The notes under the pieces: model-generated
Told to the model about the DNA's origin: nothing
What the model saw: only the letters and a program-made list of their open reading frames with translations
Database searches by the model: none
Part shown: positions 14,747 through 40,821 of the stretch, piece by piece
Layout: each line of letters opens with the position of its first letter
Numbering within the stretch: position 1 is the first letter of the stretch
From: Candidatus Chloroploca sp. Khr17
Lineage (GTDB): Bacteria > Chloroflexota > Chloroflexia > Chloroflexales > Chloroflexaceae
Assembly (NCBI RefSeq): GCF_004138165.1
Contig: NZ_RYFF01000039.1
Location: 1 to 52,173, forward strand
Direction: 5' to 3'
DNA length: 52,173 nt
Program-made: the position numbers and the translations under genes

Positions 14747-15198
14747 GCCGCTTCATTTTGCTGGATTCTGGCCCCTTGGGCTTAGTGACCGGCTCCCCCA
14801 AGTCGGCAGAGACAAATGCCTGTCGCACGTGGCTCGAAAACATGCTTGCTGCGGGGATAAATATGCGCGTTCCTGATATTACGGACTATGAGGTGCGGCG
14901 CGAACTGTTACGCGCCCGGCGCATGACCGGGGTGCATCAGATCGACGCGCTCCGGGCACGCATCGGACACCTTGCGGTTACGACGGAAACGCTGTTTCTG
15001 GCGTCTGAGTTCTGGGCACAGCTGCGGCAGCAGGGCAAGCCGACTGCCGCGCATGATGCCCTTGATGGTGATGTTATTCTCGCTGCCCAGGCCGCACTGC
15101 TCATTGGGATTGGGCACTCGGTTGTGATTGCCACCACCAATGTGGGGCACCTCTCACGGATGGTTCCCGCCGACGAGTGGCAGAACATCACTGCATAG
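14743..15198 (+). CDS. PIN-domain nuclease, toxin partner
   Basis: 151 aa. [19 protein letters not shown] gives the first PIN Asp; [14 protein letters not shown] near residue 47 gives the conserved E/D pair; [15 protein letters not shown] near residue 107 and [14 protein letters not shown] give the last part of the fold. The family is often annotated as type II toxin-antitoxin PIN nuclease, or as a PIN protein of unknown target. The start overlaps the RHH gene stop, and the stop lies only 11 bases before the DUF1156 gene, so all three are probably on one transcript. Confidence 0.75.
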
Positions 15199-15209
15199 CA
15201 AGGATTCCC

Positions 15210-18302
<3,093 letters not shown>

Positions 18303-19761: not shown

Positions 19762-19762
19762 C

Positions 19763-21391: not shown

Positions 21392-22035
21392 CCCAGGACG
21401 AGAAACCTGCATTTTTGCGGATCGATCTTCTCTCCGATAGCACCTTCAGCCGTGGTGAGGGAACCGCTGGTATAGTGGATACAGACATTGACCGTGATGA
21501 CTATGGCATGCCCTGTATCGGGGGCAAAACCGTGCGCGGCCTACTCCGTGACACATGGCTCTCAATGGCCCCCCATTTTCCTGACCTTGAGGCAGCGGCA
21601 GAGCGCGTGCTTGGGCGCAGCCAAAGCCTTGCTGACGCCTGCCGTCTGCGGATTGGTGACGCACTATTGCCAGAACCGATCCGCCGCATGGTGCGGCAAG
21701 CGGTTGAGCGTCAGGAGTATCCGCTCACCCCGGCCATGATCCTTGATGGGTTCACCTGCATTCGCTATCAGACGGCTGAGGATCGGGAAACTGGTGCCCC
21801 AGATGCAACCACACTGCGTTCATCACGCCTGGTGATCCGAGGTTGCAGCTTGGAAGCACGCCTGACCTGGTTGCATGGCTATCAACCAGAGCCTTCCGAC
21901 CTCCGCCTGCTCAGTTTGTGTGTCTTAGCCACGCGCCACGGTGGGTTGTTGCGCAACCGAGGACGCGGTCATCTTCAGATGACCCTTGATGGCGATCTGG
22001 CGAAGACACGGCACTATGCGGAGGTAAGTCAATGA
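21388..22035 (+). CDS. Cas7-like RAMP protein (Csm3-type)
   Basis: 215 aa. The opening LRIDLLSDSTFSRGEG and TAGIVDTDIDRDDYGMPCIG then GKTVRGLLRDTW are the RAMP pattern of a beta strand, Gly-rich turn and the IPGK..RG.LR motif. HGGLLRNRGRGHLQMTL near residue 190 is the Gly-rich loop at the end of the fold. Cas7 subunits form the backbone that coats the crRNA, and an Asp in the thumb loop of Csm3 cuts target RNA; DTDIDRDD offers candidate Asp residues. ATGA overlaps on both sides link it to cas10 and csx10. Which position in the complex it takes cannot be told from sequence. Confidence 0.8.
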   Translation: MTQDEKPAFLRIDLLSDSTFSRGEGTAGIVDTDIDRDDYGMPCIGGKTVRGLLRDTWLSMAPHFPDLEAAAERVLGRSQSLADACRLRIGDALLPEPIRRMVRQAVERQEYPLTPAMILDGFTCIRYQTAEDRETGAPDATTLRSSRLVIRGCSLEARLTWLHGYQPEPSDLRLLSLCVLATRHGGLLRNRGRGHLQMTLDGDLAKTRHYAEVSQ

Positions 22036-23765: not shown

Positions 23766-25255
23766 CTGCAAACCCCCTTGCTGATGCAATGCCACCGCGC
23801 CCGGTCGAAGCGCGGTGGGTGATCTGTGGCCTGCTCACGCTTGAAACTGCCCTCCACCTTGGCGGTAGTGCGAGTGAGCGGATAGACATGCCCGTGCTAC
23901 GCGACTCCCGTGAGGGTAAGCCGCTGCTACCAGGGACAACCCTCGCTGGCGCGTTGCGGAGCGCCCTCACGGATCGACTTGCTGGGTATTGGAGCGCTAA
24001 GCCAGAGTCATCTCAGGTTGCCCACCTTTTCGGCGGATGGCGGGGCGATGACGACGGATCGCAGAGTCCTCTGATCGTGTTTGATGCGCTTGGGCAATTG
24101 CCTGATGCTCAAGGTATCGAAATTCGTGATGGCGTCGCGATTGATCCCACAAGTGGAACTGCCGAGGATCAGAAGAAGTACGACTATGAGGTTGTGCCGG
24201 CGGGTACGACGTTTCCCATCCGGATCGATCTGCTGCTGCCAGTCCCGGGAAGCCGCCACCACCCCACCCCACCCACAGAGCAAGAACTGCTCGCCAGTTT
24301 AGCCATGGCGCTTGATGCCTTGACACATGGTGAGACCGCCTTTGGGGCAAGGCGCTCGCGTGGGCTTGGCAGAGTCCGGGCCGTTTGGTCAGCCCGGCGC
24401 TTCGATCTCAGTTCCGCAGTGGGCTGGCGCACATGGATCGGAGCAGATCATCAGCAACCCAATTTGATACCACCAAGCCAGGTTTCCATCCGCGATGTGC
24501 TTGAGGCTGCTGCCCCCGCTGCGTTTCGCCCCCTTGAGCTTGCCCTTGATCGGCGCGAACGGGTCGTCATCGCCCTCAACCTCCAGGTTGTTCACGACAT
24601 CCTCGTGCGTAGCCCTAGCCCCGAGCCGCTTGCGCCTGATGTCACCCACCTCCAGAGCGGCGGTGCACCGATTCTGCCTGGGACGAGCCTTGCGGGGGTC
24701 ATGCGTGCCCATGCCCTACGGATTGCGCGGTTAGTACGTGACCATCATGACGCCGAAGCGTGGATTGAGCGCCTCTTTGGGCCACGCTTTGAAGGTCAAT
24801 CCCCAACCAATGATCGCCAGCCGCGAGCCTCGCGGGTACGGATCAGCGAAGCGCGGCTGACGCAGAGCCACCCACAGACGCAGACGCGGGTTGCCCTTGA
24901 TCGCTTCACCCAGGGAACCGTTCCTACGGCGCTCTTCGACGAACAGACCGACGTTGCAGGAAGGGCGACCGTACACGTGGAACTCTGGAAACCCCATGAG
25001 GGTGAGCTGGGGCTGATCCTGCTGGTACTCAAGGATCTGCTCGCTGGATGGCTTCCGGTTGGCGGGACAACAAATGTTGGTCGGGGCGTCTTACAAGGCC
25101 AAGCGACCGTCACATGGTATGACGGTGATGGGAAGCCCCCTCGTTTGGCCACCATCCAGCCGGGAGCGTACCCCTCTGGCACAGCGGCGCAGGCGATCAA
25201 TCAAGCGATTACGGCGTTTCACGAGGCGAAATCACTTCAACAAACTGCGAGGTAG
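23762..25255 (+). CDS. double Cas7-like RAMP fusion (type III-D)
   Basis: 497 aa containing two RAMP units in series. Unit one: ICGLLTLETALHLGGSASER, LLPGTTLAGALRSALTDRLA and the end loop FGARRSRGLGRVRAVW (about residue 200). Unit two: VVIALNLQVVHDILVRSPSP, ILPGTSLAGVMRAHALRIAR, then VALDRFTQGTVPTALFDEQT and TTNVGRGVLQGQATV (about residue 445). DRFTQG..ALFDE is the kind of thumb loop in which Csm3-like subunits carry the target-RNA-cutting Asp. Fused Cas7 subunits are known in III-D and III-E effectors and reduce the number of separate proteins. Start overlaps csx10 (ATGA); csx19 begins three bases after the stop. Confidence 0.82.
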   Translation: MTANPLADAMPPRPVEARWVICGLLTLETALHLGGSASERIDMPVLRDSREGKPLLPGTTLAGALRSALTDRLAGYWSAKPESSQVAHLFGGWRGDDDGSQSPLIVFDALGQLPDAQGIEIRDGVAIDPTSGTAEDQKKYDYEVVPAGTTFPIRIDLLLPVPGSRHHPTPPTEQELLASLAMALDALTHGETAFGARRSRGLGRVRAVWSARRFDLSSAVGWRTWIGADHQQPNLIPPSQVSIRDVLEAAAPAAFRPLELALDRRERVVIALNLQVVHDILVRSPSPEPLAPDVTHLQSGGAPILPGTSLAGVMRAHALRIARLVRDHHDAEAWIERLFGPRFEGQSPTNDRQPRASRVRISEARLTQSHPQTQTRVALDRFTQGTVPTALFDEQTDVAGRATVHVELWKPHEGELGLILLVLKDLLAGWLPVGGTTNVGRGVLQGQATVTWYDGDGKPPRLATIQPGAYPSGTAAQAINQAITAFHEAKSLQQTAR

Positions 25256-25258
25256 TGC

Positions 25259-25894
25259 ATGACTGGCTCTGATCATTCAGTGCAACTCTTTGGTTGCGAC
25301 CTGCTGCCCCTCGACGCCGTGGCATGTGAGCAGTACCTTGCGTGGCTCATCGGCGAAGCGGGGACCGCTGAACCAAACGCCCTTGGTTCAGCACGATGGC
25401 TCCTTGCCCATAGCCTTGATGGGATCACCTGGGGCCGTTATGAGCGAACAACGCAAACATGGCTGCTTGGCCATACCATTGCGCCTGAAATTTCGCCACC
25501 ATTGCAGCGGCAAATGCTCCTTGAGTTACGCATCTTTGGGGCTGCTGGTGAAGTCTTGATCTGGCGTACTGATGACGGACTACGGGGCCGAGTGCTGCGC
25601 GAAGATGGAGAAGCGTATCAACGAGACAATCCCCTTCGTCCAGCCGATGAGGAACGTATTGTGCTGGGCAGGCATATCCTCGAAACGCATCATACTGCGG
25701 GCTTTACCCATGTCCGCGACGGAACGGCGAAAGAACAGGTACTGCCGCTTGTCGTAAGCGAACAGGATCTCCGCTCGGGCAAGGTGCGCCTTGTGATCCG
25801 CAACTACTACGAGGCGGATGCAACGACAGGGGTGGTACGCATTGCCGCGACACGCTTGGTCAAACTCACAATAGGAGGCAACGATGGCGCTTGA
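25259..25894 (+). CDS. csx19: Csx19 (TIGR03984 family, type III-D)
   Basis: 211 aa. The central part, EVLIWRTDDGLRGRVLREDG followed by DEERIVLGRHILE, then GFTHVRDGTAKEQVLPLVV and LVIRNYYEADATTGVVRIAA with TRLVKLTIGG, matches the pattern I know for Csx19/TIGR03984. These proteins are found only with type III-D modules; their exact place in the complex is not settled to my knowledge, and a role as a structural subunit or in crRNA handling is possible. It overlaps the next RAMP gene by 11 bases. No membrane segment or catalytic motif is visible. Confidence 0.75.
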   Translation: MTGSDHSVQLFGCDLLPLDAVACEQYLAWLIGEAGTAEPNALGSARWLLAHSLDGITWGRYERTTQTWLLGHTIAPEISPPLQRQMLLELRIFGAAGEVLIWRTDDGLRGRVLREDGEAYQRDNPLRPADEERIVLGRHILETHHTAGFTHVRDGTAKEQVLPLVVSEQDLRSGKVRLVIRNYYEADATTGVVRIAATRLVKLTIGGNDGA

Positions 25895-28334
25895 ACTGGG
25901 TAAGTTGGTAGTCCGAAAGAACAAGAACAAGCCTCCAACGATTCAAGTTGAAATAAATGGAAAACTATTCAGTCCTACTGGTAGTGAAATTTCACAATCG
26001 GTGCTTGATCGCTTAGCAGAGCTTGATGGTCAAGAAGTCGAGTTTGAGCGAGTGAAGGGTCAACCCAAACAGGTTCGCGAGCGTGGCGGTCGCTTTGTCG
26101 CACCACGACAAGGTGTCCCCGCAGATCCACGCAATCAGAGGCGCGGTCATGGCGGGGGTGGCGCAAACCAGCCGCAAAGCAGTACGCAGCCAAGTGCTAG
26201 CGGATCGCCTGCCGACTTCCGTAACCCCTACAACTTTGTTCCGGCCCCTCCGCGCACCCTTGCCGATCCTGAGCTTGGTGATCAGTGCCCGATTGACCAA
26301 TCTATATTTAATATTGATCGCTACTCAGGCTGGTTGCGCGTGCGCATGGTTGCCCAAACGCCGCTGCTCGTGCCCGACACCGAGCATGTTCGCGAGGAAA
26401 ACCACCATAAGACCTATCCACTCCGTGTAGGAAAAGATGACACGCCTCTGATTCCCGCCTCAAGTGTGCGGGGCATGCTCCGTTCCGCCTATGAGACGAT
26501 CACCAACTCGCGCTTTGGCCGCTTCTCTAGCGTTCATACAAACCGCCTCGCTTTCCGTATGTCCACAGCCGACGGCTTGCAACTGATTCCTGCCCGTATC
26601 ATCAACGGTCACATCCACCTGCTCACAGGTACTTCACGCATCGGTGGCGAGGGTAAACCAGACGGCCCGATGTATGCGGCGTGGTTGCCAAGGTATCACC
26701 GCAATGGACAGATTGCTACCGGGGCCATCCGTTATCCAGATCGCAGTCTACCAAAGCATGGCGATGAGGTGGTATGTTGGGTAGAGAAAATACAGTACAC
26801 CAACCCAAGATTTTTCTGGCGTGTTCGTAGAATGGTGCGAGGGAATGATCTTGATCAGCTTGGCCCGCAACCAGAGGCCAGCCAACCGCATGGAAAGACA
26901 GCACCAGCTCAACCCCAAGAAATGCGACGCATCCACGGCTGGGTTTGCATCACCAATGCCAACATCAACCGCAAACACGACGAGCGGGTATTCTTCCAAG
27001 ATGGAGCCCCTGCCGCTGAGCCATTTGCTGTGACAGAGCAGCATAAGCGCATGTGGTGGGAATTGATCCAAAACTATCAAGCCATCCATGAGGATGAGCT
27101 TGCAAGACGTGCAAGGAACAACGAACAGCCTGATGCGTATTTGGGCGGTGAGCCAGGAAGAACTGCATGGTCACGACACATCTACATGGAGCATGCTCGC
27201 GAGCTAACTGACGGCACACTATGCTATGTGCGCTTGAATGCAGATCAGACAGATGTCGAGGCGCTTTTCCCCGTCATGATCTCACGCGAACTCTATGCAG
27301 TTGCGCCGTGGGATCTCCTTGATGCATCCTTGCTTCCGGCTGCCTCGACTAACCAACTCTCGCCCGCCAACCGCGTCTTTGGCTGGGTTAAGGCTGATGC
27401 CGACACTGGAGCAAGGGACGAGAAGCAGGTCGCTATACGTGGGTTGCTGCGCGTGGGGCCAATCACCTGTCTTTCAAGTCGCGATGATGCCGTGGAAGAA
27501 TTTGCACCTCCGGGTGTTCCCCTCGCTATTCTTGCAACGCCCAAGCCGCAACAGGGGCGCTTCTATGTTGCCAAATCGCCTAAAGGTGAAGCACTGACTA
27601 ACGGCCTCTCGAAGCAGGAAGCGGGATACCAGGCACGCAAAGGGCTACGTGGGCGCAAAGTTTACCCTCACCAGCGCAGCTTACCCAATGGCCACTGGGA
27701 GCATCCTACTGAAGATCGAACGCAGCAGGGGCTGGGTAACCCAGCTCACTATCAAGAGTATCGGCGACCAGGGGGACGGCGCGATGAGCAGAACCGCTCG
27801 ATCCTTGGCTGGGTCAAGCCCAGTGCGGTCTTCACCTTCGATCTGCATGTACAAAACCTATCTGTCGTCGAACTTGGGGCGCTGCTCTGGCTTGTAGATC
27901 TGCCTGAAGAGCACTTCTTACGCTTTGGGAGTGGGAAACCGTTCGGTTTCGGCAGCGTACGCTTGTCTATTGAGACTTGTGATGTGCGTACTGGTGCCGC
28001 ATTACGTGCCCGCTATCGCACATGGCATGAAGACGGCCCCCTCAGTGATCCCCGTGAAGCAGCCGTTGCTGCCTTCAAGCAGGCGGTAGCTCACGCTTAT
28101 AACGCTACATTTGAAAAAGTTCCATTCATCAACGCCTTTCTGGTCGCCTGCTTTGGGCATAACGATAACCTCCCCACACACTACCCGCGCGCAACAGCCG
28201 ATGGTCAGGCTGGCCCGCCAAGCCCGGCAGGTGAGGCATTCAAATGGTTTGTTGCCAATGAACGAAATGGCACACGATATGCGCTTTTAGATCTCGTGCA
28301 GGATCGTGGCTTGCCCACGTTGCCCGAAAAATAA
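25884..28334 (+). CDS. large RAMP protein, TIGR03986 family
   Basis: 816 aa. An N-terminal basic region (residues 1-75, VVRKNKNKPPTIQVEINGKL) resembles a small RNA-binding barrel and is followed by a low-complexity linker (RRGHGGGGANQPQSSTQPSA). The RAMP core starts near 150: WLRVRMVAQTPLLVPDTEHV, then LIPASSVRGMLRSAYETITN, the xPxSSxRGMLR motif of Csm3/Csm5-like proteins. The C-terminal part has LLWLVDLPEEHFLRFGSGKP and FGFGSVRLSIETCD, the Gly-rich loop. TIGR03986 is a standard III-D backbone component. It is the last gene of the effector operon; 196 non-coding bases separate it from DUF499. Confidence 0.82.
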   Translation: MALELGKLVVRKNKNKPPTIQVEINGKLFSPTGSEISQSVLDRLAELDGQEVEFERVKGQPKQVRERGGRFVAPRQGVPADPRNQRRGHGGGGANQPQSSTQPSASGSPADFRNPYNFVPAPPRTLADPELGDQCPIDQSIFNIDRYSGWLRVRMVAQTPLLVPDTEHVREENHHKTYPLRVGKDDTPLIPASSVRGMLRSAYETITNSRFGRFSSVHTNRLAFRMSTADGLQLIPARIINGHIHLLTGTSRIGGEGKPDGPMYAAWLPRYHRNGQIATGAIRYPDRSLPKHGDEVVCWVEKIQYTNPRFFWRVRRMVRGNDLDQLGPQPEASQPHGKTAPAQPQEMRRIHGWVCITNANINRKHDERVFFQDGAPAAEPFAVTEQHKRMWWELIQNYQAIHEDELARRARNNEQPDAYLGGEPGRTAWSRHIYMEHARELTDGTLCYVRLNADQTDVEALFPVMISRELYAVAPWDLLDASLLPAASTNQLSPANRVFGWVKADADTGARDEKQVAIRGLLRVGPITCLSSRDDAVEEFAPPGVPLAILATPKPQQGRFYVAKSPKGEALTNGLSKQEAGYQARKGLRGRKVYPHQRSLPNGHWEHPTEDRTQQGLGNPAHYQEYRRPGGRRDEQNRSILGWVKPSAVFTFDLHVQNLSVVELGALLWLVDLPEEHFLRFGSGKPFGFGSVRLSIETCDVRTGAALRARYRTWHEDGPLSDPREAAVAAFKQAVAHAYNATFEKVPFINAFLVACFGHNDNLPTHYPRATADGQAGPPSPAGEAFKWFVANERNGTRYALLDLVQDRGLPTLPEK

Positions 28335-28530
28335 GCCTGGGTCACGCGATCCTGACGTGCTACGAAGGCACAGGGAGCACCTGGTGATGATGCGCACCCT
28401 CGACATCAATCATTGCCAATCGTGGTAGGCCGCCAAGAAGCCCTCGCATCCCAAGGCAGTGAGGGTAGGGCAACGTCGAACGATGGACACCGCCACCGCC
28501 GTGCAGTAGGTGAGCGATAAGGAGCAACCG

Positions 28531-31500
28531 ATGGCTATCAGCAACTACGAGCGTGTCGGCAAGACAATGGAACTCTTGCGGCAGGGGTTGCAGCCCTTCA
28601 TTGAGCGCGAACTTCAGGCCCAGCATGGCAAATATTGGATCACCACGGTCACCAGCGGCTGGCGCAACGACCTGACCTGGGCCGACGACGAGACGCCGCA
28701 CCTCGACATTGCCGCCTTGCTCCGGCTGATGTGGGAGCAGTGGAACGATGTCTTCCGCACGACGCTGGGCTTTGCCGAGCGCAGTCTCGTCAGTGAACTG
28801 CGTGACCACCGGAACAAATGGGCGCACCAAGTGACGTTTTCGACCGACGATGCCTACCGTGTGCTCGATTCGGCGGCCCGGCTGCTCACGGCCATCTCGG
28901 CCCCGCAGGCCGACGAGATCGAGCGCATGAAGATGGAGTTGCTCCGCCTGCGCTTCGATGAGCAGGTGCGCAGCGAGCGCCGCAAGAGCGCTGGGGCCAT
29001 TGAGAGCACCGTGACCGGGGGCCTCACGCCCTGGCGCGAGGTGGTGACGCCGCATCAGGATGTCGCCAGCGGGCGCTACCAGCAGGCTGAGTTTGCTGCC
29101 GATCTCTGGCAAGTCCACCTCGGCGAAGGCACCGATGAATACCGTGACCCGGTCGAGTTCTTTCGCCGCACCTATCTCACCACGAGCCTGACCCGCCTGC
29201 TGGTCAGCGGCTTGCAGCGGCTGACCAGTGGCGGCGGTGATCCGGTCGTGCAACTCCAGACCAACTTTGGAGGCGGCAAGACCCACTCAATGCTGGCGCT
29301 CTACCACCTCGTCGCGGGGGAGGCCTCCACCGACCTGGTTGGCCTTGACCAGGTGATGCTGGCGGCGGGCGTGACCACCCTGCCGACTGCCCGCCGGGTG
29401 GTGCTCGTGGGCAACAAGATCTCCCCTGGCAACCCCATCGTCAAAGCCGATGGCACGGTCGTACGGACGCTCTGGGGCGAACTGGCCTGGCAACTCGGCG
29501 GGCGCGACGCCTACGAGCGGGTGCGCCTCGACGACGAACGGGCCACCAACCCCGGTGATACGCTGCGCCTCCTGTTCAACGCCTACGGCCCGTGCCTCAT
29601 CCTGATCGACGAGTGGGTGGCCTATGCGCGTCAACTCCACGAGGAGAGCGACCTCCCAGCGGGGAGCTTCGAGACCCAGTTTAGCTTTGCCCAGGCGCTG
29701 ACGGAGTCGGCCAAACTCGCCCAGCAGTGTCTGCTGGTGATCAGTCTGCCCGCGTCGGACACGAGCGGCTCACCCCATACCCAGGCCGATGACACCGAGG
29801 TGGGCGGGCAACGCGGGCGCGAGGCGCTCGACCGGCTCCGCAACGTGATCGGGCGGGTCGAGGCATCATGGCATCCGGCCAGTGCCGAGGAGGGTTTCGA
29901 GATCGTGCGCCGTCGCCTCTTTACCCCGCTCAGTGATCCGGCGCAGTTCAAAGCCCGCGATGTCGTCGCCCGGGCCTTCGCTGACCTCTACCGCACGCAG
30001 GGGCAGGAGTTTCCGCCCGAGTGTCGCGACAGCGGCTACGAACAGCGGCTCAAGGCAGCCTACCCGATCCATCCCGAGGTCTTCGACCGGCTCTACACCG
30101 ACTGGTCAACCCTCGCCAAGTTCCAACGCACGCGGGGCGTGCTGCGCCTGATGGCGGCCGTGATCCACCGCCTGTGGGCGACGGGCGACCGCAATCCACT
30201 GATCATGCCTGCCAATCTCCCGTTGGACGAAGAGCATGTGCAGACCGAACTCACGCGCTACCTCTCCCCACAGTGGGTGCCCATCATCGAGAAAGATGTG
30301 GATGGCCCCCATGCGCTGCCCCTGCACCTCGACCGCGACGTCCCGAACCTGGGCAAGTACGCGGCCACCCGCCGCGTGGCGCGCACGGTCTACCTCGGCT
30401 CGGCCCCCACCGCGAGTGCGGCCAATCGGGGCCTGGAAGATCGGCGCATCAAGCTGGGCTGTGTGATGCCCGGCGAGTCGCCCGCTGTCTTCGGCGATGC
30501 ATTGCGGCGTCTGGCGGCGGCGGCGACCTACCTCTATCAGGACGGGCCGCGCTACTGGTACGCGACCCAGCCGACGGTCACCAAGTTGGCGGAAGATCGG
30601 GCCGAGCAGTTGAAGCGTGACCCTGACCAGGTGCTGCGCGACGTCGAGCAGCGGCTGCGAGCCGACCTGCGCACCATGGGCGACTTCCCCCGCATCCACG
30701 CCTTGCCCACCGCGAGTGCCGACGTGCCCGATGACTTCGACGCCCGCCTCGTCGTGCTCAGTCTCACCCAGGCCTACCGCAAAGAACCGGGCAATGCGGC
30801 TGAAGTGGCCGCCCGGACGATCCTGGAACAGCGCGGCACGACCCCGCGGCTCTTCCGCAACACGCTGGTCTTCCTGGTGGCCGACGCGAACCGGGTGCAG
30901 GATCTGGACGAGGCCGTGCGCAGCTATCTGGCGTGGACGGCGATCCTGGATGATCGTGAGCGCCTTGACCTCTCGCCACACCAGGTCAAGCAGGCCGAAA
31001 TGCAGCAGGCCAACGCCGACAAGGTCGTGACGGCACGGCTGCCGGAGACGTACCAATGGCTGCTGGTACCGACGCAAGCGACGCCGCAGGTGCCGGTGAC
31101 GTGGCACGCGCTGCGGCTGAGTGGGCAGGAGGCGTTGGCGGTACGGGCGAGCAAGAAACTGCGCAGCGACGACCTGCTGATCCTCGCGCTGGCCCCGACC
31201 AGCCTGCGGCTCGAACTCGACAAGATCCCGCTGTGGCGGGGTGACCACGTCGCGGTGCGCCAGGTGCTCGAGGACTTTGGACGGTACCCCTACCTGCCGC
31301 GCGTGCGCAGCGTCAGCGTCCTCCTCGACGCGATCCAGGCCGGGGTCAACTCCTTGACCTGGGAACTCGACACCTTCGCCTACGCCGAAAGCTACGACGA
31401 GGCGACGGGGCGCTATCGTGGGCTGCGCAGTGCCGCCCTCGTCACCCTCACCGAGGATGAGCGTGGGCTGCTGGTGCATCCGGACGTTGCGCGGACGCAC

Positions 31501-32040
31501 CTGCTTGCGCCCCCCGTCCGGCTTACCTTGACGCCAGCGGAGATCCAGCTTCGTCCTGGGATGAGCGTGCCGTTCCGTGCAACGGCGTTCACTGCCGACC
31601 ATCAGCCGGTTGAGGTCACGGCGCTCCGCTGGTCAGCCGACGGCGGAAGCATCACCCAGCACGGCCTGTTCCAGGCGGGTGACACCATCGGCACCTTCAC
31701 CGTCCGGGCTGAAGGCAACGGCCTCTCTGCCGTTGCCTCCGTGGTGATCACCGAGCAGGCCATCGATCCGCCACCATCGCCACCGTCGCCACCACCGCGC
31801 AAGCAGCTGCGCCGCTTCCACGGGAGCGTCGCGCTGAGCGCCGAACGCGCGGGACGCGACGCCAGCAAGATCGCCGAGGAAGTGATCGCCCACCTGACCG
31901 GCCTGGTCGGGGCCAATGTGCGCATCACCCTGGAGATCGAAGCGAACATCCCCAACGGCGCACCAGATCACGTCGTGCGCACGGTGACCGAAAACAGCCG
32001 GACACTCACGTTCACCCAGGCCGGATTTGAAGAGGAGTGA
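28531..32040 (+). CDS. HEPN(Swt1-type)-DUF499 ATPase with Ig-like insert
   Basis: 1169 aa from the ATG at 28531 (ribosome site AAGGAG). Residues 1-115 resemble Swt1-type HEPN (YERVGKTMELLRQGLQPFIE) and hold the RNase-type motif R-x4-H as RNKWAH (94-99). DUF499 follows: Walker A NFGGGKTHSMLALYHL (about 246), LILIDEWVAYARQL as Walker B (about 355), LLVISLPASDTSGS as sensor. Residues about 997-1075 (LTPAEIQLRPGMSVPFRATA to AVASVVI) look like a bacterial Ig (Big_2-type) domain, odd for a cytosolic ATPase, followed by a Pro-rich linker (DPPPSPPSPPPRK) and a C-terminal domain. DUF499 proteins accompany DUF1156 methylases in defence clusters. Here the type III-D operon separates the two. Confidence 0.85.
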   Translation: MAISNYERVGKTMELLRQGLQPFIERELQAQHGKYWITTVTSGWRNDLTWADDETPHLDIAALLRLMWEQWNDVFRTTLGFAERSLVSELRDHRNKWAHQVTFSTDDAYRVLDSAARLLTAISAPQADEIERMKMELLRLRFDEQVRSERRKSAGAIESTVTGGLTPWREVVTPHQDVASGRYQQAEFAADLWQVHLGEGTDEYRDPVEFFRRTYLTTSLTRLLVSGLQRLTSGGGDPVVQLQTNFGGGKTHSMLALYHLVAGEASTDLVGLDQVMLAAGVTTLPTARRVVLVGNKISPGNPIVKADGTVVRTLWGELAWQLGGRDAYERVRLDDERATNPGDTLRLLFNAYGPCLILIDEWVAYARQLHEESDLPAGSFETQFSFAQALTESAKLAQQCLLVISLPASDTSGSPHTQADDTEVGGQRGREALDRLRNVIGRVEASWHPASAEEGFEIVRRRLFTPLSDPAQFKARDVVARAFADLYRTQGQEFPPECRDSGYEQRLKAAYPIHPEVFDRLYTDWSTLAKFQRTRGVLRLMAAVIHRLWATGDRNPLIMPANLPLDEEHVQTELTRYLSPQWVPIIEKDVDGPHALPLHLDRDVPNLGKYAATRRVARTVYLGSAPTASAANRGLEDRRIKLGCVMPGESPAVFGDALRRLAAAATYLYQDGPRYWYATQPTVTKLAEDRAEQLKRDPDQVLRDVEQRLRADLRTMGDFPRIHALPTASADVPDDFDARLVVLSLTQAYRKEPGNAAEVAARTILEQRGTTPRLFRNTLVFLVADANRVQDLDEAVRSYLAWTAILDDRERLDLSPHQVKQAEMQQANADKVVTARLPETYQWLLVPTQATPQVPVTWHALRLSGQEALAVRASKKLRSDDLLILALAPTSLRLELDKIPLWRGDHVAVRQVLEDFGRYPYLPRVRSVSVLLDAIQAGVNSLTWELDTFAYAESYDEATGRYRGLRSAALVTLTEDERGLLVHPDVARTHLLAPPVRLTLTPAEIQLRPGMSVPFRATAFTADHQPVEVTALRWSADGGSITQHGLFQAGDTIGTFTVRAEGNGLSAVASVVITEQAIDPPPSPPSPPPRKQLRRFHGSVALSAERAGRDASKIAEEVIAHLTGLVGANVRITLEIEANIPNGAPDHVVRTVTENSRTLTFTQAGFEEE

Positions 32041-32146
32041 GGCGATCACGCCCGTTCAGGTCGGCTTCGGTTCACATCCGTGCGCATTCGCGCACCGTCT
32101 GATCCAGAGCATATGACATGGATCGTCATCGATCAAGCGAGGTGGT

Positions 32147-33148
32147 ATGGAAGATGCGCGTTCCCCGGGGCGTGAGTTCGTGGCAGGGGCATTGCCGACG
32201 TTGCCGACGTTGCGCGTACGGCTGACGTTTCGGTTGCTGTCGGATGGCGTCTTGCCGACCCGCAAAGGCAGTATGTTTCGCGGCGGTTTTGGGTACGCCT
32301 TTCAGCAGGTGTCGTGCCCGCGCTCGTGCTGGGGCAGCGAGGTCTGCGCGGGCGAGACGATCTGCCCATTTCGCTGGATCTTTGCCACGCCGCACCCGCC
32401 GGACAACCCCTATCTGCACGATCTGCGTGACGTGCCCCGTCCGTTTGTGATTGAGCCGCCCCCCGAGACCCGTACCCACTACCGTGCCGGTGAGACGCTT
32501 GAATTGACGCTGGTCTTGATCGGGCGGGGGATCGACTTTCTGCCCTATTTTCTGCTCAGTTTTGCGCGTCTCGGCGACATGGGGCTGGGACGCGACAGCA
32601 CCCGTGCCCGCCTGGAACGCGCCGAAGCGCTGGCACCGTGGCGTCCGGTGGGCACGGTGATCTACCAGGATGGGCGCATGGTCGCGACGGAGCCGTTGCC
32701 CGTGCTGAGCAGCGCCGAGGTTGTGGCGCGAGCGGCGGCCATGCCGGAGGATCTGCGGTTGACGTTGCACAGCCCGTTGCGGCTGAAATATCGGGGCGAC
32801 TACCTCAACCGCGTGGTGCCAGCGGCGCTGATCCACGCGGCCTGCTGGCGGATTGACGTGCTCGCGGCGTTTCATGCCGACGGCGGCTGGGCCACCCCGT
32901 ACCGCCCGCTCGTCGAGGCCGCCGAGGCGATTGAGGTTCAGTCAGGGCCGACCACGTGGAACGACTGGCGCCGCACCTCGACGCGCGGCCCGACCCCGCA
33001 GACCATGTCGCTCGGCGGCATCGAAGGGAGCGCCGAGTTGCGTGGCGTGCCAGCCGCGCTACGGGCGGTGCTCTTGATGGGCAGCATCGTGCATATTGGC
33101 AAAGCGTGCGTGTTTGGGCATGGCGGGTATGCGTTGGAGGGGCTGTAG
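32147..33148 (+). CDS. cas6: Cas6 crRNA-processing endoribonuclease
   Basis: 333 aa. RVRLTFRLLSDGVLPTRKGS and MFRGGFGYAFQQVSC open a RAMP fold, followed by a Cys cluster (CPRSCWGSEVCAGETICPF) that may bind a metal, as seen in many bacterial Cas6 of this branch. LTLHSPLRLKYRGDYLN begins the second half and the protein ends in GKACVFGHGGYALEGL, the Gly-rich loop. Cas6 cuts array transcripts within the repeat, leaving the eight-base 5' handle; here that would be ATGACGAC. GAGGTGG lies just before the start. It begins the processing/adaptation set with csx15, cas1 and cas2, separated by 106 bases from DUF499. Confidence 0.85.
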   Translation: MEDARSPGREFVAGALPTLPTLRVRLTFRLLSDGVLPTRKGSMFRGGFGYAFQQVSCPRSCWGSEVCAGETICPFRWIFATPHPPDNPYLHDLRDVPRPFVIEPPPETRTHYRAGETLELTLVLIGRGIDFLPYFLLSFARLGDMGLGRDSTRARLERAEALAPWRPVGTVIYQDGRMVATEPLPVLSSAEVVARAAAMPEDLRLTLHSPLRLKYRGDYLNRVVPAALIHAACWRIDVLAAFHADGGWATPYRPLVEAAEAIEVQSGPTTWNDWRRTSTRGPTPQTMSLGGIEGSAELRGVPAALRAVLLMGSIVHIGKACVFGHGGYALEGL

Positions 33149-33269
33149 GTGGGGTTTTTAACGCAGAGACGGGGAGACGCGGAGGCGCAGAGGATCCTTG
33201 ATGATGAGGGGGGAAGGTTGTGATGGGTACGACCAGCGATCACGATCTCACGCAACGAAAGCGAAGGTT

Positions 33270-33650
33270 ATGCTGTTATTAAACTATGCCCATCCACTGA
33301 CTGAGGAGCAATTGGCCCACCTCGAGGCGCTGGTGGGGGTGCGACCAGAGGTGCGCAGTCTGGCGGCCCAGGCGGATCGGAGCCAGTCGTTTGCCGAGCA
33401 GGCGTGTGCGTTGGCTGATGCGGCGGGCTTGACCGGGGAGGCCTGGCAGACGATGCCAGTGCTGATCAATCCGCCCGGCCTGGCGGCGCTGGCGCTGGCG
33501 TTGCTGACTGAAGTGCATGGCCGCTGTGGCTACTTTGTGCCGGTGCTTAACATTCGCCCGGTACCCGGCAGTGTGCCTCCTCGCTTTGAAATCGCCGAAA
33601 TCATCAATCTCCAGGCACTCCGCGACGAGGCGCGAACCCGCCGGGGGTGA
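33270..33650 (+). CDS. csx15: Csx15 family CRISPR-associated protein
   Basis: 126 aa from the ATG at 33270 (MLLLNYAHPLTEEQLAHLEA), which matches the usual start of the family (MLLLN.SHPLT); the frame from 33198 would add 24 unrelated residues. VLINPPGLAALALALLTEVH and GRCGYFVPVLNIRPVPGSVP followed by RFEIAEIINLQALRDEA are further family landmarks. Csx15 is a small Rossmann-like protein encoded with type III systems and has been put forward as a cyclic-oligoadenylate-binding protein, possibly a ring nuclease; I am not certain how far that has been tested. Such a role would fit the Cas10/CARF pair upstream. Confidence 0.75.
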   Translation: MLLLNYAHPLTEEQLAHLEALVGVRPEVRSLAAQADRSQSFAEQACALADAAGLTGEAWQTMPVLINPPGLAALALALLTEVHGRCGYFVPVLNIRPVPGSVPPRFEIAEIINLQALRDEARTRRG

Positions 33651-33859
33651 GGTGGGATTTGAGATTTGAGATTTGAGATTTGGTGCAGTCGGTGTTGCGC
33701 TGATACCAACTGAAATTGAACACTCCGCATAGGCGTTGTCGCCAGAGCGCGTGAGAACGCCATGCGCGGCAATCTGCAATCCAAAATCTGCAATCTGAAA
33801 TGGTATGAGACTCGAACAGGTCGCATGGCATCGCACAAGGCACGAGGGGAAGGACGCGG
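33651..33859. repeat. GATTTGAGATTT simple repeats between csx15 and cas1
   Basis: 33657-33681 holds tandem GATTTGA units, and near 33770-33800 GCAATCTGCAATCCAAAATC is a related inverse motif (CAAATCTCAAATC-type). These are low-complexity intergenic repeats. The rest shows no clear promoter; the ribosome site AGGGGAAGGA lies before cas1. Confidence 0.5.
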
Positions 33860-34882
33860 ATGGCAACGCTCTATATCATCGAACAAGGCGCAGGCGTCAA
33901 TTTAGAGAATGAGCGCATTGTGGTCAGCCGGGACGGGCAAGAGGTGAGTGCCTTGCCGCTGATCAAGATCACGGATGTGGTTGTCTTTGGCAATTGCTCC
34001 TTTACCCTCCCGACGCTCAAACGGTTGCTTGACCGCGGGGTCGAGTTGAGCTTTTTGACGGTACGGGGGCGGTATCACGGGCGGCTGGTGGGCATGGCGA
34101 CGCCGCATGTGGGCTTGCGGCGAGATCAATACCGGAAGGCCGACGATCCGGCGTGGGCGCTGGATCAGGCGCAACGCATTGTCACCGGCAAGCTGCGCAA
34201 CTGCCGCGCCCTGCTGCAACGCTTTGCGCGGAACCGCAGCAGCGTGGATCCCGAAGTGACGAGCACGATCAGCGCGTTGAGCGATTTGAGCGAACGGGTG
34301 CAACGCACCACCAAGGTCTCGGCCCTGCTTGGCGTGGAAGGGAGCGCCACGGCTCGCTACTTTCGTGGGTTACGGGCCCTGTTCGATCCCGCCTGGCATT
34401 TCCAGGATCGCAACCGGCGGCCCCCGACCGACCCCGTCAACGCCGCCCTCTCCCTCGGCTACACGCTCTTGCAGCACCATGTGCTGGGGGCCGTGCAGAC
34501 GGTCGGCTTTGACCCGTACCTGGGCTACCTGCACCAACCCGACTACCACCGGCCTTCGCTGGCGCTCGACATGATGGAGGAATTTCGCCCGCTGATCATT
34601 GACTCGCTCGTCTTGCGTTGCTGCAGCGACGGGCGACTGACGCAGGACGACTTCAGCGTCGGTGATGACGAAAGCCCGTACGCCGTACGGATGAGTGACG
34701 ACGCGAAACGGCGCTTCATCAAAGCCTACGAAGAGCGCGTCCACGTACGGCTGATGCACCCGGAGGGGGCGGATCGCGGGCCAGGCGAAGTTGACTACGC
34801 CCGTTGTTTTGAACTGCAAGCGCGGCGGTTGGCACGCGCGGTACGTGGTGGCGAGCCGTATCAACCGATGTTTTCGCGTTAG
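33860..34882 (+). CDS. cas1: Cas1 integrase
   Basis: 340 aa. LYIIEQGAGVNLENERIVVS and LIKITDVVVFGNCSFTLPTL form the N-terminal beta domain. The catalytic part shows LLGVEGSATARYFRGL (the metal-binding Glu, about residue 160), GYLHQPDYHRPSLALDMMEE (the His and following acidic residues, about 222-241) and the EEFRPLIIDSLVL helix. All expected catalytic residues are present, so the protein should be active. Cas1 and Cas2 insert new spacers next to the leader; the array begins about 470 bases after cas2. There is no reverse-transcriptase fusion. A dispersed GACGCAAAGGCGCAAAG repeat follows the gene. Confidence 0.92.
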   Translation: MATLYIIEQGAGVNLENERIVVSRDGQEVSALPLIKITDVVVFGNCSFTLPTLKRLLDRGVELSFLTVRGRYHGRLVGMATPHVGLRRDQYRKADDPAWALDQAQRIVTGKLRNCRALLQRFARNRSSVDPEVTSTISALSDLSERVQRTTKVSALLGVEGSATARYFRGLRALFDPAWHFQDRNRRPPTDPVNAALSLGYTLLQHHVLGAVQTVGFDPYLGYLHQPDYHRPSLALDMMEEFRPLIIDSLVLRCCSDGRLTQDDFSVGDDESPYAVRMSDDAKRRFIKAYEERVHVRLMHPEGADRGPGEVDYARCFELQARRLARAVRGGEPYQPMFSR

Positions 34883-35063
34883 GGTGGGGTCGGGGGGCGG
34901 TTTTTTTGACGCAAAGGCGCAAAGGTTTTTGTGGAGGTGTACGAACCCTTCGCGTCTTCACGTCTTCGCGTGAGCTTCTTTTTTCGCGGAGGTGCGCTCA
35001 CCCTTCGCGCCTTTGCGTGAGTTTCTTTGCGTGGTCTTGGGTTTAGGGAAGCGCGAGGCGAGC

Positions 35064-35345
35064 ATGCTCTACCTCATCTCCTACGACATCTCGATTGACC
35101 GGCGGCGCACCAGGATCGCCAAAATCCTCGCAGGCTTTGGCCAACGGGTGCAATACAGCGTCTTCGAATGTGACCTGGACGCGAACCAATACCAGGCCTT
35201 ATGGAAAAAACTAGCCCGCACCATCCAGCCGGACGAAGGCGACAACCTGCGGATCTACCGGCTCTGCGCAACGTGTGCGAGCACCATCGCGGTCATCGGC
35301 GCGGGGCCACCGGTCGAAACGAGCCCCGACTTTTACCTGGTCTAG
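35064..35345 (+). CDS. cas2: Cas2
   Basis: 93 aa from the ATG at 35064 (MLYLISYDISIDRRRTRIAK), the normal Cas2 start; the frame from 34992 would add residues coded by a dispersed repeat. YDIS supplies the conserved Asp, GQRVQYSVFECDLDANQYQA is the second strand and helix, and DNLRIYRLCATCASTIAVIG the third strand. Cas2 is the dimeric centre of the Cas1-Cas2 integrase. It ends DFYLV, as many members do. The gene is flanked on both sides by copies of a GCGGAGGTGCGCTCACCCTT repeat, so expression signals around it are unclear. Confidence 0.92.
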   Translation: MLYLISYDISIDRRRTRIAKILAGFGQRVQYSVFECDLDANQYQALWKKLARTIQPDEGDNLRIYRLCATCASTIAVIGAGPPVETSPDFYLV

Positions 35346-35816
35346 GGTCACTCCTTTGCGAAGAAGGCGGTTTTTTTGACGCAAAGGCGCAACGGCGCAA
35401 AGGTTTTCGCGGAGGTGCGCTCACCCTTCGCGTCTTCGCGTGAGCTTCTTTTTTCGCGGAGGTGCGCTCACCCTTCGCGTCTTCGCGTGAGCTTCTTTTT
35501 TCGCGGAGGTGCGCTCACCCTTCGCGTCTTCGCGCCTTCGCGTGAGCTTCTTTGAAGCGTCGTGGGTCGAGGGGCACGGTCTTTCAAGGTACACCAGCGA
35601 GCGCGAAGGCAACGGCGTAAAGCACACCTGAGGGTAAAAGAGGCACCGAGCGTTCGCTACGAAAGCCTCATGCCGCGCAAACGCATCAGAAAGGGCTACA
35701 ACGGCCTTGAACAAGCACGAAACCACCAGAAACGCTTTACACAAAACGCCCAAAACAGCCCAACCGCGCAACCGACCCCGATTCAGGGCTTTGCAACGCC
35801 CCAAAAATATGGTACT
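35346..35816. other. presumed CRISPR leader region with 47-base tandem repeat
   Basis: No gene. 35407-35547 holds three tandem 47-base units beginning TCGCGGAGGTGCGCTCACCC; a fourth related copy lies before cas2 at about 34984-35030. The remainder up to the first repeat (35548-35816) is unique and should contain the leader and array promoter, because spacer acquisition is expected at the cas1-cas2 side and the degenerate repeat is at the far end. The last 90 bases are A-rich, with runs such as ACAAAACGCCCAAAACAGCC. No exact promoter is claimed. Confidence 0.5.
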
Positions 35817-38800
35817 ATCAGAGAGACCTCCCCGCAGTGCAGGGGATGACGACCGACTCAGTACGATAGTCTTATCCAGACCTACATGGCTACGAACATC
35901 AGAGAGACCTCCCCGCAGTGCAGGGGATGACGACTTAGTACACCCCCGAGTGTAAAGTAAGCACAGTGATCAGAGAGACCTCCCCGCAGTGCAGGGGATG
36001 ACGACAAGTCGCCGTCTGAAATGATCCGCCCATCCTCGCCGTATCAGAGAGACCTCCCCGCAGTGCAGGGGATGACGACTGTTGCTGAATGAGGCACAAC
36101 TCATGTCAACTAGGACGATCTCGATCAGAGAGACCTCCCCGCAGTGCAGGGGATGACGACTCAAACGCCTCGTACTCGCCAGCGACCGAGATGACGGCAT
36201 ATCAGAGAGACCTCCCCGCAGTGCAGGGGATGACGACGGTCTTTGTCATGCCAATACCGAGCAAGCGCGTTCACGGATCAGAGAGACCTCCCCGCAGTGC
36301 AGGGGATGACGACCTCTTGAGGTTGATCAGGACTCAAGAACCCGACAACTTCGAATCAGAGAGACCTCCCCGCAGTGCAGGGGATGACGACTGGCCTCGC
36401 CCAGGCCAACTGCAGCTAGGGGCTAGGGGATCAGAGAGACCTCCCCGCAGTGCAGGGGATGACGACCGCCGATCTCCCACCCTTGCGCATTGAACCACCA
36501 AATCGTATCAGAGAGACCTCCCCGCAGTGCAGGGGATGACGACGCCACGCTCCCTGGTGGGCATGCGCCAAAAGCGCCTGCATCAGAGAGACCTCCCCGC
36601 AGTGCAGGGGATGACGACTCGCACAGTAGTTCTAGATAGTACTGTTGTGCTATGGTATATCAGAGAGACCTCCCCGCAGTGCAGGGGATGACGACCATAG
36701 ACTACCTTACCAGTTTTAAGCGATTCGATACGCTCAATCAGAGAGACCTCCCCGCAGTGCAGGGGATGACGACTGGATGGTCTGGCGCTCGATACGCCGC
36801 CGTGGTTGCCGCCATCAGAGAGACCTCCCCGCAGTGCAGGGGATGACGACGACTTCACCGCCCGCACCATATCCGCCAACATGCCTGCGTATCAGAGAGA
36901 CCTCCCCGCAGTGCAGGGGATGACGACCGGAGTTGTGCCGAAAATACTACACACAACAGGAAAAAATCAGAGAGACCTCCCCGCAGTGCAGGGGATGACG
37001 ACAGAACGGCCCAATACCGAGACGTGCATGAAATCCTCCTGGTGAATCAGAGAGACCTCCCCGCAGTGCAGGGGATGACGACGTTCATCCTCGGTCGTCG
37101 GCTGTCCGTTCCGATCAAACATCAGAGAGACCTCCCCGCAGTGCAGGGGATGACGACGCAACCTTCCAGCTCTTCATGGTGTCTCTCCCCTTTATCAGAG
37201 AGACCTCCCCGCAGTGCAGGGGATGACGACGCAAAGATAAATATTCCTTTGCATCATGAAACCCTTTTGATCAGAGAGACCTCCCCGCAGTGCAGGGGAT
37301 GACGACGACTACTAAGGTAGAAATACCCTATACCGTATCATGTATCAGAGAGACCTCCCCGCAGTGCAGGGGATGACGACCCAGGATCTGCGCCGCGATA
37401 AACACCGGTTGTTCCTGCATATCAGAGAGACCTCCCCGCAGTGCAGGGGATGACGACGCCCATGCCCCCTCTTCCCAATCGCACACATTCCATTCAATCA
37501 GAGAGACCTCCCCGCAGTGCAGGGGATGACGACACTCGTGCCATCTGTCGGTATTTTTGTAGACGATGTATGGATCAGAGAGACCTCCCCGCAGTGCAGG
37601 GGATGACGACATTAGCAGCCGCATCAGCACTTACAGCTAAAGCCTTATTAATCAGAGAGACCTCCCCGCAGTGCAGGGGATGACGACATTGACAGTGCGC
37701 TTGCAGGAACTATGCAGCCTGATGTATCAGAGAGACCTCCCCGCAGTGCAGGGGATGACGACCCGCAGGAATGGGCAATAGTTATGGATATGCTACACTG
37801 ATCAGAGAGACCTCCCCGCAGTGCAGGGGATGACGACCTGTCGCAACCAAATTACCATACAATTCTCCGTATCATTTATCAGAGAGACCTCCCCGCAGTG
37901 CAGGGGATGACGACGCAACGCAAGGCGATTGAGTGCTTGCTCGAAGGCCAAAATCAGAGAGACCTCCCCGCAGTGCAGGGGATGACGACTGCATCAGATT
38001 GTGAATGATAATCATTGTTCTCCCCCATCAGAGAGACCTCCCCGCAGTGCAGGGGATGACGACCATAAGGGCTTGTGGTGTCACGATCTCCTGAGCCTGT
38101 GATCAGAGAGACCTCCCCGCAGTGCAGGGGATGACGACGCAATTAGTCCACCGGCAAATGTTTCTACCGTTTCGTCATCAATCAGAGAGACCTCCCCGCA
38201 GTGCAGGGGATGACGACGCTCACCGTGTTAAAACTGGCGATGGGCGTCCCGGCAGCGATCAGAGAGACCTCCCCGCAGTGCAGGGGATGACGACTTGCAC
38301 CGGCATGCCCAGCAAGCGGGCGTACAATTCACCATCAGAGAGACCTCCCCGCAGTGCAGGGGATGACGACCAAGAACCGTACTCACCAGCACTCGGATCA
38401 AACACCGCAACATCAGAGAGACCTCCCCGCAGTGCAGGGGATGACGACTTCTGGATTATCACAATGCGTTATTAGTGTTTATCAATCAGTATCATCAGAG
38501 AGACCTCCCCGCAGTGCAGGGGATGACGACCTTACCAAGAATGACCATAGACGAAGCACAGGTGTTCCATCAGAGAGACCTCCCCGCAGTGCAGGGGATG
38601 ACGACTACTGGGAAGTCACCGTGGACGGCTGCCAGCTGCTGGTTGATCAGAGAGACCTCCCCGCAGTGCAGGGGATGACGACCCGCCGACCCTGGCCTCG
38701 ATGTAGCCACGTTGCCCGAATCAGAGAGACCTCCCCGCAGTGCAGGGGATGACGACATGCTTTGCATCTGGTGCGTATCCTGCGGTCTGGTAAAGATCAG

Positions 38801-39815
38801 AGAGACCTCCCCGCAGTGCAGGGGATGACGACATAATGATAGATAAAGAACCCGCGCCAATGATCTGGCAATCAGAGAGACCTCCCCGCAGTGCAGGGGA
38901 TGACGACGAACTATTCAGGAGAGGTCACTACAATGTTACAGATTACAAATCAGAGAGACCTCCCCGCAGTGCAGGGGATGACGACTATGCTTTGCTTGTT
39001 TTTTTGACATGGCAGAGTACAATGCTGTATCAGAGAGACCTCCCCGCAGTGCAGGGGATGACGACCTTGACAATTGGCAATGCCATAACAGTACAATTCA
39101 TCAGAGAGACCTCCCCGCAGTGCAGGGGATGACGACTTCAAATTCTAAGAACGGATCATCACGTAAGGTTTCATCAGAGAGACCTCCCCGCAGTGCAGGG
39201 GATGACGACTAAATATCATCATTACCATCTAAATGATAGATAGTACTATTGCATCAGAGAGACCTCCCCGCAGTGCAGGGGATGACGACCTAACACATGG
39301 TTAAGACCGTCTACGAACAATTATCAGAGAGACCTCCCCGCAGTGCAGGGGATGACGACCACGAGGAACGCCAGCCACGCCAGCGGCGCACCGTGCAGCA
39401 TCAGAGAGACCTCCCCGCAGTGCAGGGGATGACGACTCAACCTTGCAACTCGTTTTAACCCCAACGTCCATGCCAATCAGAGAGACCTCCCCGCAGTGCA
39501 GGGGATGACGACGCAACCCATTGTTCGATGACGTGCAGGATCGTTTGCATCCATCAGAGAGACCTCCCCGCAGTGCAGGGGATGACGACTCGAATGAGGT
39601 GACGGGAACGAACTCGGAAGTGATCACTCCATCAGAGAGACCTCCCCGCAGTGCAGGGGATGACGACCTGTATGAATCGACCGTTGCTGCGTCAGAAAGC
39701 ACTGTATCAGAGAGACCTCCCCGCAGTGCAGGGGATGACGACCCTCCCTCTTGGCTTCGAGATCGGCAAGCTGCCTCCATCAGAGAGACCTCCCCGCAGT
39801 GCAGGGGATGACGAC
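35817..39815 (+). CRISPR. CRISPR array, type-1 repeats (53 copies, 37 bases)
   Basis: 53 copies of a 37-base repeat that begins ATCAGAGAGACCTCCCC and ends GCAGGGGATGACGAC, all reading as identical here. The 52 spacers between them are 33-45 bases, mostly 37-41. CCCC and GGGG in the centre can form a short stem, so Cas6 would leave ATGACGAC as the 5' handle. Near-perfect repeats and the adjacent cas1-cas2 suggest recent, active acquisition. The frames of about 60-160 codons crossing the array are artefacts of the repeat. Orientation is plus strand, with the leader on the left. The spacers look unrelated by eye; their targets cannot be found without a search. Confidence 0.97.
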
Positions 39816-39853
39816 CTTAGTTCTTCCGATTGGGCGACCCGAGGTTTTTACCA

Positions 39854-40695
39854 ATGACGACCAATGCCCCGCTGAGCAGGGGATGACGACATGAAGGCAA
39901 TGATGGCCTGAGTGCCGAAGCGTTGTATGACGACCAATGCCCCGCTGAGCAGGGGATGACGACTCGCGGTGGCTGTCGCCGTCGCTGTTGCCGTGGGCGA
40001 TGACGACCAATGCCCCGCTGAGCAGGGGATGACGACAGATAACCTGTGCGGCGCTGGCGCCGGGCAGGTGAAGATGACGACCAATGCCCCGCTGAGCAGG
40101 GGATGACGACTGTAACCTCGACCTGCGCCTGGTTGGCGCTAGGTGCCTCATGACGACCAATGCCCCGCTGAGCAGGGGATGACGACTAGACCTGTGGCAG
40201 CAGTGAGGCTTACGAATGGAGATGACGACCAATGCCCCGCTGAGCAGGGGATGACGACTTACATGTCAACTTTAATATTCAGCATTTTAAACAGCATGAC
40301 GACCAATGCCCCGCTGAGCAGGGGATGACGACCATCGTGGACGCATTGATGATGATACGCTGCGCCGCCAGGAGATGACGACCAATGCCCCGCTGAGCAG
40401 GGGATGACGACCTGCGTGCTGCAACGCGTCCGAGACATAGAAATCGTATGACGACCAATGCCCCGCTGAGCAGGGGATGACGACTTCAAGGCTCTCAGAG
40501 AACAATCATCACATAACCCAATGACGACCAATGCCCCGCTGAGCAGGGGATGACGACCGAGCCGCCCCATCGCGACCATGAGCAGGGCGGCGACATGACG
40601 ACCAATGCCCCGCTGAGCAGGGGATGACGACATAATGTTTTCAGTGCTCGTATAGAATAGTAGCGGCGATGACGACCAATGCCCCGCTGAGCAGG
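39854..40695 (+). CRISPR. continuation of the array with type-2 repeats (11 full, 1 truncated)
   Basis: After one ordinary 38-base spacer (39816-39853) the repeat changes to a 37-base unit that begins ATGACGACCAATGCCCCGC and ends GAGCAGGGGATGACGAC. It shares the last 15 bases and the stem with the type-1 repeat but differs over most of its first half. Eleven full copies are followed by a final copy cut at base 27 (40669-40695), the degenerate distal end. Spacers are 35-41 bases. The 8-base ATGACGAC occurs at both ends of this repeat. Both repeat types would give the same crRNA 5' handle. Confidence 0.95.
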
Positions 40696-40821
40696 AGGGT
40701 TGGGCTGAACATAACGCAGCGACGCCGCTTCCGCGACGGTGACACTGAACATAACGACGGCTTTTTTGACGCATCTGTGCGCAGATGCGCCTGGCACGCG
40801 AGGATGGTGTCTACGTAACAG

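Follow-up and report, generated by a model that had tools for sequence, protein, structure and literature searches.

Changes of the terminal repeat and recombination between repeats are already known from CRISPR arrays (PMC8047081 and PMC4390879, in the parts drawn on here). Substitutions and truncations often affect the 3′ portion of the final repeat (PMC8047081, same part). 'Mixed repeats' arising by rearrangement between CRISPR arrays were reported in a 2022 preprint by Ou and McInerney, as cited in the part of PMC12282179 used, and the excerpted text of PMC4390879 describes a Sulfolobales host whose two Cas6 enzymes differ in repeat specificity. Acquisition of a spacer takes place at the leader-proximal repeat and duplicates it (type II-A; PMC6895254, in part). 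The array described here, in which a first repeat type (T1) passes into a second (T2), is probably a single real array with two histories, an older T2 remnant and a T1 cassette that took over the leader end.

The window, i.e. the whole stretch of 52,173 nt that was analysed, is an entire contig (C146) of a genome of 171 contigs and 6.38 Mb. Its relevant features are as follows.

18415-28334, + strand: CARF-nuclease and III-D-type effector genes (Cas10, Cas7/Csm3-like, Cas5-IIId, Csx19); PADLOC
32037-35816, + strand: T1 cassette of Cas6, Csx15, Cas1, Cas2 and leader; PADLOC, NCBIfam (Csx15) and blastn to the C84/C69 sibling
32147-33148, + strand: Cas6; PADLOC, with no match in NCBIfam
33198-33650, + strand: Csx15; PADLOC and NCBIfam
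33860-34882, + strand: Cas1; PADLOC
34992-35345, + strand: Cas2; PADLOC
35817-39815, + strand: 53 identical T1 repeats, separated by 52 unique spacers of median 39 nt; exact repeat match
39816-39853, + strand: junction spacer, 38 nt; exact repeat match on both flanks
39854-40631, + strand: 11 identical T2 repeats, with 11 T2 spacers, median 37 nt; exact repeat match
40669-40694, + strand: a twelfth T2 repeat, cut to its first 26 nt; the next base (40695) suits repeat and element alike
40695-40806, + strand: IS-end-like element, about 112 nt long, also known from the genus with a total of four array ends carrying near full-length copies

The effector genes were labelled Csx1/CARF-PDDEXK, Cas10d, Cas7_IIId, Cas5_IIId and Csx19 by PADLOC, which thus found the combination that marks type III-D (Cas10, a Cas5/Csx10-like protein, several Cas7-like proteins and Csx19); the NCBIfam matches to Cas10 lay below cut-off (20.1 versus 79.4 bits and 16.5 versus 170 bits). 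These genes are nested in a Hma-like defence system, between hmaB (15177-18302) and hmaC (28510-32040), with hmaA at 9957-14174. A gene pair matching the candidate defence system PDC-M07 occupies positions 8062-9824 of the window.

Both repeat blocks were uniform, all 53 T1 and all 11 T2 units matching exactly with zero intermediate repeats; chance or mis-seen repeats were rejected. The locus has the regular direct repeats and unique spacers of a CRISPR array (64 full repeats, spacers of 33-45 nt, no duplicates), and departs from the rule of a single repeat type apart from decayed ends in having two types with no mismatch within either block. Further full matches to T1 or T2 were absent from the window at up to 6 mismatches on the + strand and 8 on the − strand. 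Direct comparison of the repeats placed the switch between nt 22 of unit 53 and nt 3 of unit 54, where the only homology available is the 15 nt common to both types, GCAGGGGATGACGAC. Because Cas1 and Cas2 lie upstream, and because the 600 nt preceding repeat 1 align closely to the leader of an array on contig C69 of the same genome, the leader is on the T1 side. The original prediction that 53 T1 repeats run into 11 T2 repeats across one normal-length spacer (39816-39853), with T1 leader-proximal and T2 distal, was therefore borne out by the exact matches and by the Cas1/Cas2 genes and leader that precede T1.

The two repeats agree at 22 of the 24 positions on the 3′ side and at 4 of the 13 on the 5′ side. 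Their last 15 nt, including the 8-nt handle ATGACGAC, are identical, and the hairpin CCCCGC-NNN-GCAGGGG is common to both except for 2 loop bases, so that the 11 differences between the blocks are confined to the first 13 nt and the loop. The claim of a common 15-base end and handle with a divergent first half agrees with this count (4/13), and it understated the likeness, since the 5′ arm of the hairpin is also common and brings agreement to 22 of the last 24 nt. T2 both starts and finishes with ATGACGAC (39854-40631), hence its 5′ end equals its own handle. As the two halves have identical hairpin arms and handles, one Cas6, which belongs to the T1 cassette, and one III-D effector could serve the whole array. 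In a set of 38 repeats (703 pairs), the T1 handle was matched 8/8 only by T2 and by the sibling repeat on C69. The T1 hairpin alone was matched at 14/16 equally by T2, the sibling, the repeat of contig C142 and two further repeats, so the handle alone singles out T2, which counts against the reading of one array with two histories. So does the finding that a divergent 5′ part with a similar remainder is a common pattern in the order, seen in 39 of the 703 pairs at the chosen thresholds.

Every part of the T1 cassette, i.e. leader, Cas2, Cas1, Csx15 and Cas6, has its sibling on contigs C69 and C84 of the same genome. DNA identity by blastn was 88.8-91.4% (Cas6 segment 88.8%, Csx15 90.8%, Cas1 91.4%); the Cas1 protein is 97% identical to that of C69, and Cas6 92% to its sibling at the edge of C84. 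In the C69 array, a closely similar leader precedes 22 full repeats, which depart from T1 at 2 loop nt. Apart from this sibling, the first 13 nt of T1 were matched best by three repeats adjoining Cas1 genes of the same clade (11/13, 9/13 and 9/13; median 4). A recent conversion between the C146 and C69 cassettes was considered and rejected, as 150-nt windows gave 85-95% identity without a clear step except in the first (70%), most of which precedes the start of homology at 33248. The possibility that the T1 cassette had inserted into a T2 repeat was likewise rejected, because no full T2-like repeat lies left of the cassette; its left edge had a single 12-mer in common with the leader region.

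The kin of T2 lie elsewhere. Contig C142 of the same genome carries 85 full copies of another 37-nt repeat, with neighbouring genes for Cas6 and for III-D-type Cas7, Csx19 and Cas5. The first 13 nt of T2 agree with this repeat at 11/13 (next best 8, median 4 among the 38 repeats), and the T2 handle at only 4/8. A T2/C142-type pattern (≤3 mismatches) occurred in 4 of the 82 genomes of the order: the own genome, G014 of the same genus, which holds a 5-unit remnant of a C142-type array, and G001 and G011 with single sites. The T2 hairpin and handle are confined to the window within the own genome; with a free loop, this pattern occurred in the own genome only among 41 family genomes, and in a public genome set that may exclude the own genome it had one lone match, in Nocardiopsis. 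Of the separate arrays looked for in support of a fusion, a near-T1 array thus exists on C69, whereas the 82 genomes of the order yielded no separate T2 array, which weighs against two histories.

On the preferred two-history reading, an older array would have carried T2, with a 5′ module like that of the C142 repeat. A cassette of Cas6, Csx15, Cas1, Cas2, leader and T1 repeat would have taken over its leader end by crossover or conversion near the junction, most simply inside the 15 nt common to T1 and T2, and all later units would be T1, copied from the leader-proximal repeat. Since this repeat is duplicated at acquisition, a change in it passes to later units, and uniform blocks without intermediates fit best with one recombination or conversion event near the junction. 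We infer both this event and its direction. A length of 15 nt is short for RecA-dependent recombination, which speaks against it. It is possible, though unlikely, that only the 5′ half of the leader-proximal T2 was rewritten to T1 from a related array, the leader and cas genes being kept. A clean switch that leaves no intermediates would also follow from conversion of a single repeat, and across the order the repeat is highly variable in its 5′ part; however, the siblings found for the leader and for all four genes of the cassette point to the whole module.

Spacer lengths were compared among loci chosen near Cas1 or Cas6 matches, which therefore do not form a random sample. Medians were 39 nt for T1, 37 for T2, 38 for C69 and 36 for C142; T2 spacers were shorter than those of T1 (p=0.003), while T1 and C69 (p=0.37) and T2 and C142 (p=0.06) gave higher values. 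Arrays adjoining Cas1 of the T1 clade had medians of 38-43 nt, except T2 and G039:C727, and those adjoining more distant Cas1 (≤41%) had 34-38 nt. This pattern supports the two-history reading without proving it. Since G039:C727, with the closest Cas1 relative outside the own genome (82%), has 36-nt spacers, length does not cleanly track the Cas1 clade, which counts against that reading, as does spacer GC, which differed between T1 and C69 (p=0.011) but not between T1 and T2 (p=0.18). Shorter T2 spacers, together with the four Cas1 matches in the genome, would also suit two adaptation modules that fed one array in trans at different times, with no recombination. This is extremely improbable, because acquisition duplicates the resident repeat, as described in the literature, and so does not itself change the repeat sequence.

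No spacer was common to the own-genome arrays (seven sets, at 15 nt), and the spacers had no match to phages and two weak plasmid records. Among the matches listed for the 41 family genomes, two T2 spacers (40333-40374 and 40558-40594) matched chromosomal ORFs of the genus. One of these ORFs, also present in the own genome with mismatches, we take to be tyrosine-recombinase-like, and the other, in G015, is presumably RadC-like. Another T2 spacer had many weak low-complexity matches, and T1 spacers had weak matches only (best E 1.5e-4), among the matches listed. One C142 spacer strongly matched own and same-genus sequences, and C69 spacers had weak matches only, again among those listed. Comparison of the spacer targets of the two halves, as had been proposed, thus gave matches to genus ORFs for 2 of 11 T2 spacers against 0 of 53 others (52 T1 and the junction spacer), a difference (p=0.027) that was picked post hoc.

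Deviant units were flagged at seven loci, four of which (the window, L107, L175 and L176) have a second 5′ type with a conserved remainder, whereas L143 and L196 are cut by an element. L107 is a second mixed array, of similar layout and in a different genus (G034:C117, reverse complement 8496-9060), where 5 units of the first type are followed by 2 of the second and 1 cut unit of the first. Its repeat types differ at 8 of 13 positions at the 5′ end and agree at 23 of 24 at the 3′ end, and it sits just upstream of a T1-clade Cas1. In L175, from the one-contig genome G007, uneven changes affect the last 5 of 84 units, and in L176 (G027) the last 4 of 19 form one second type. In L144, the remaining flagged locus (the G014:C169 array, reverse complement 14849), the first 13 nt of a single internal repeat are replaced, and the adjacent unit lies at a distance of 72 nt.

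The variant distal units of G007 and G027 would suit a repeat that drifted step by step at a single locus and later lost its intermediates by deletion, and deletions between repeats are on record (PMC8047081, in the part used). Such drift is nevertheless improbable, because 11 differences separate two uniform blocks and because the 5′ parts of T1 and T2 have kin in different arrays. A wrong joining of two arrays during assembly could be suspected in a 171-contig genome where the arrays of C69 and C93 stop near contig edges. This is very improbable, since the join has only 15 nt in common, beside a unique spacer, and since a mixed array recurs in another genome and variant distal units in a one-contig one. 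The sibling cassette, the 5′ kin of T2 on C142, the lack of intermediates and the shorter T2 spacers support a repeat replacement or array fusion as first proposed; service of both halves by one Cas6 and one III-D complex is plausible, and the proposal as a whole is partly supported.

The distal T2 end is more than simple decay, as it runs into an element known from other array ends. The original prediction rightly gave 11 full T2 repeats there and overlooked this element. Searched with a query that started one base early, at 40694, the element had at least four near full-length copies in the 82 genomes of the order (the window, C96 of the own genome, G015:C8 and G014:C169), all at array distal ends, and at least three partial copies, among the matches listed. 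The partial copy on C79 adjoins, by eye, an apparent lone repeat. On the two-history reading, an insertion element, or what remains of one, would have truncated the distal end at nt 26 of a T2 unit, the rest being lost or elsewhere.

Cut ends were surveyed in 46 array rows with repeats of 34-40 nt, L130 being doubtful and L107 entered twice. A terminal repeat cut to ≥9 nt occurred in 17 rows, in 4 of which (L115, L117, L149, L160) the stretch stopped there. In nine of the remaining 13, spanning four genera, the cut follows nt 26 and GAG comes next (the window, L011, L105, L106, L108, L118, L162, L180 and L196); in repeats with G at nt 27, either 26 or 27 could be the boundary. The others are cut at nt 11 (L107), 25 (L114), 29 (L143) and 30 (L169). 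With random and independent cuts, an assumption that may not hold, the probability of ≥9 of 13 at one of 37 positions is about 2e-10. The terminal 74-nt stretches of L011 (C69, 1-74) and L105 (C93, 1-74) are identical up to the contig edges despite different repeats, as for a collapsed multicopy element; this stretch is of another kind than the window's element of about 112 nt. A homology between the trailing ends of C69 and the window was rejected, as local alignment was no better than for shuffles (p 0.99); a p of 0.0004 came from an anchored comparison over 16 nt, a length picked post hoc.

Right-hand ends in L143 and L196 read ...CCAGTCTC, after which the repeat resumes at nt 21; in reverse complement they give GAGACTGGTGCAGAATA, which is similar to the left ends of C69, C93, G039 and G040. 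A left end after nt 26 and a right end before nt 21 would imply a 6-bp target duplication, the two ends coming from different copies and no single copy with both ends in one array being seen. A DUF772 ORF adjoins the right end of L196; it scored 52.7 bits against an NCBIfam IS1182 cut-off of 270, and its 422 aa are incomplete, the ORF being open at the edge of the stretch. No transposase was linked to the window's own element. The recurring position suggests that insertion elements may aim at one site in CRISPR repeats. Element ends of G014:C169 and G034:C95 lie inside spacers, which, like a 1.87-kb insertion within a spacer inside the array of L113 (G039:C853), counts against a strict target rule. 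The L113 insertion has ends unlike the GAG type.

More generally, we give even chances to the proposal that a group of insertion elements of the order targets one site of the 37-nt repeat irrespective of its sequence, with the left end after nt 26 and the right end before nt 21, in the hairpin region, and prunes arrays distally, the end of the window's array being one such cut. In the same proposal, arrays would be assembled from exchangeable parts, with a 5′ module that goes with the adaptation genes and a hairpin-handle module that goes with Cas6. If the nt-26 site holds, mobile elements that prefer CRISPR repeats would help to set array ends. The array would document how one adaptation module gave way to another while old memories were kept, apparently thanks to continued compatibility of the repeat's processing half, and it opens to test the idea that different machines govern the two ends of a CRISPR repeat.

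In conclusion, the locus is of a known kind with an unusual, well-defined history, and the insertion-site pattern is most worth pursuing. As in terminal-repeat polymorphism (PMC8047081, in the part used), repeats differ at the leader-distal end; unlike there, 11 intact second-type units differ in the 5′ half, and the last is cut after nt 26 into sequence common to other array ends. Repeats of different arrays stand within one array as in the 'mixed repeats' cited in PMC12282179; in the window, hairpin arms and handle are common and the 5′ halves have kin in different arrays. Among the titles and abstract openings searched, in a literature with few subscription journals, insertion elements that use a fixed site in CRISPR repeats were not described. 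The elements resemble IS1182-like (DUF772 transposase) elements in their related left and right terminal sequences and in the DUF772 ORF at one right end, but differ in a score far under the NCBIfam cut-off (with an incomplete ORF) and in an apparent fixed target in CRISPR repeats. Recombination between repeats was likewise inferred for the CRISPR loci of Sulfolobales, where mobile elements within arrays are reported to be rare and the excerpted text of PMC4390879 describes no two-type array of the form seen in the window.
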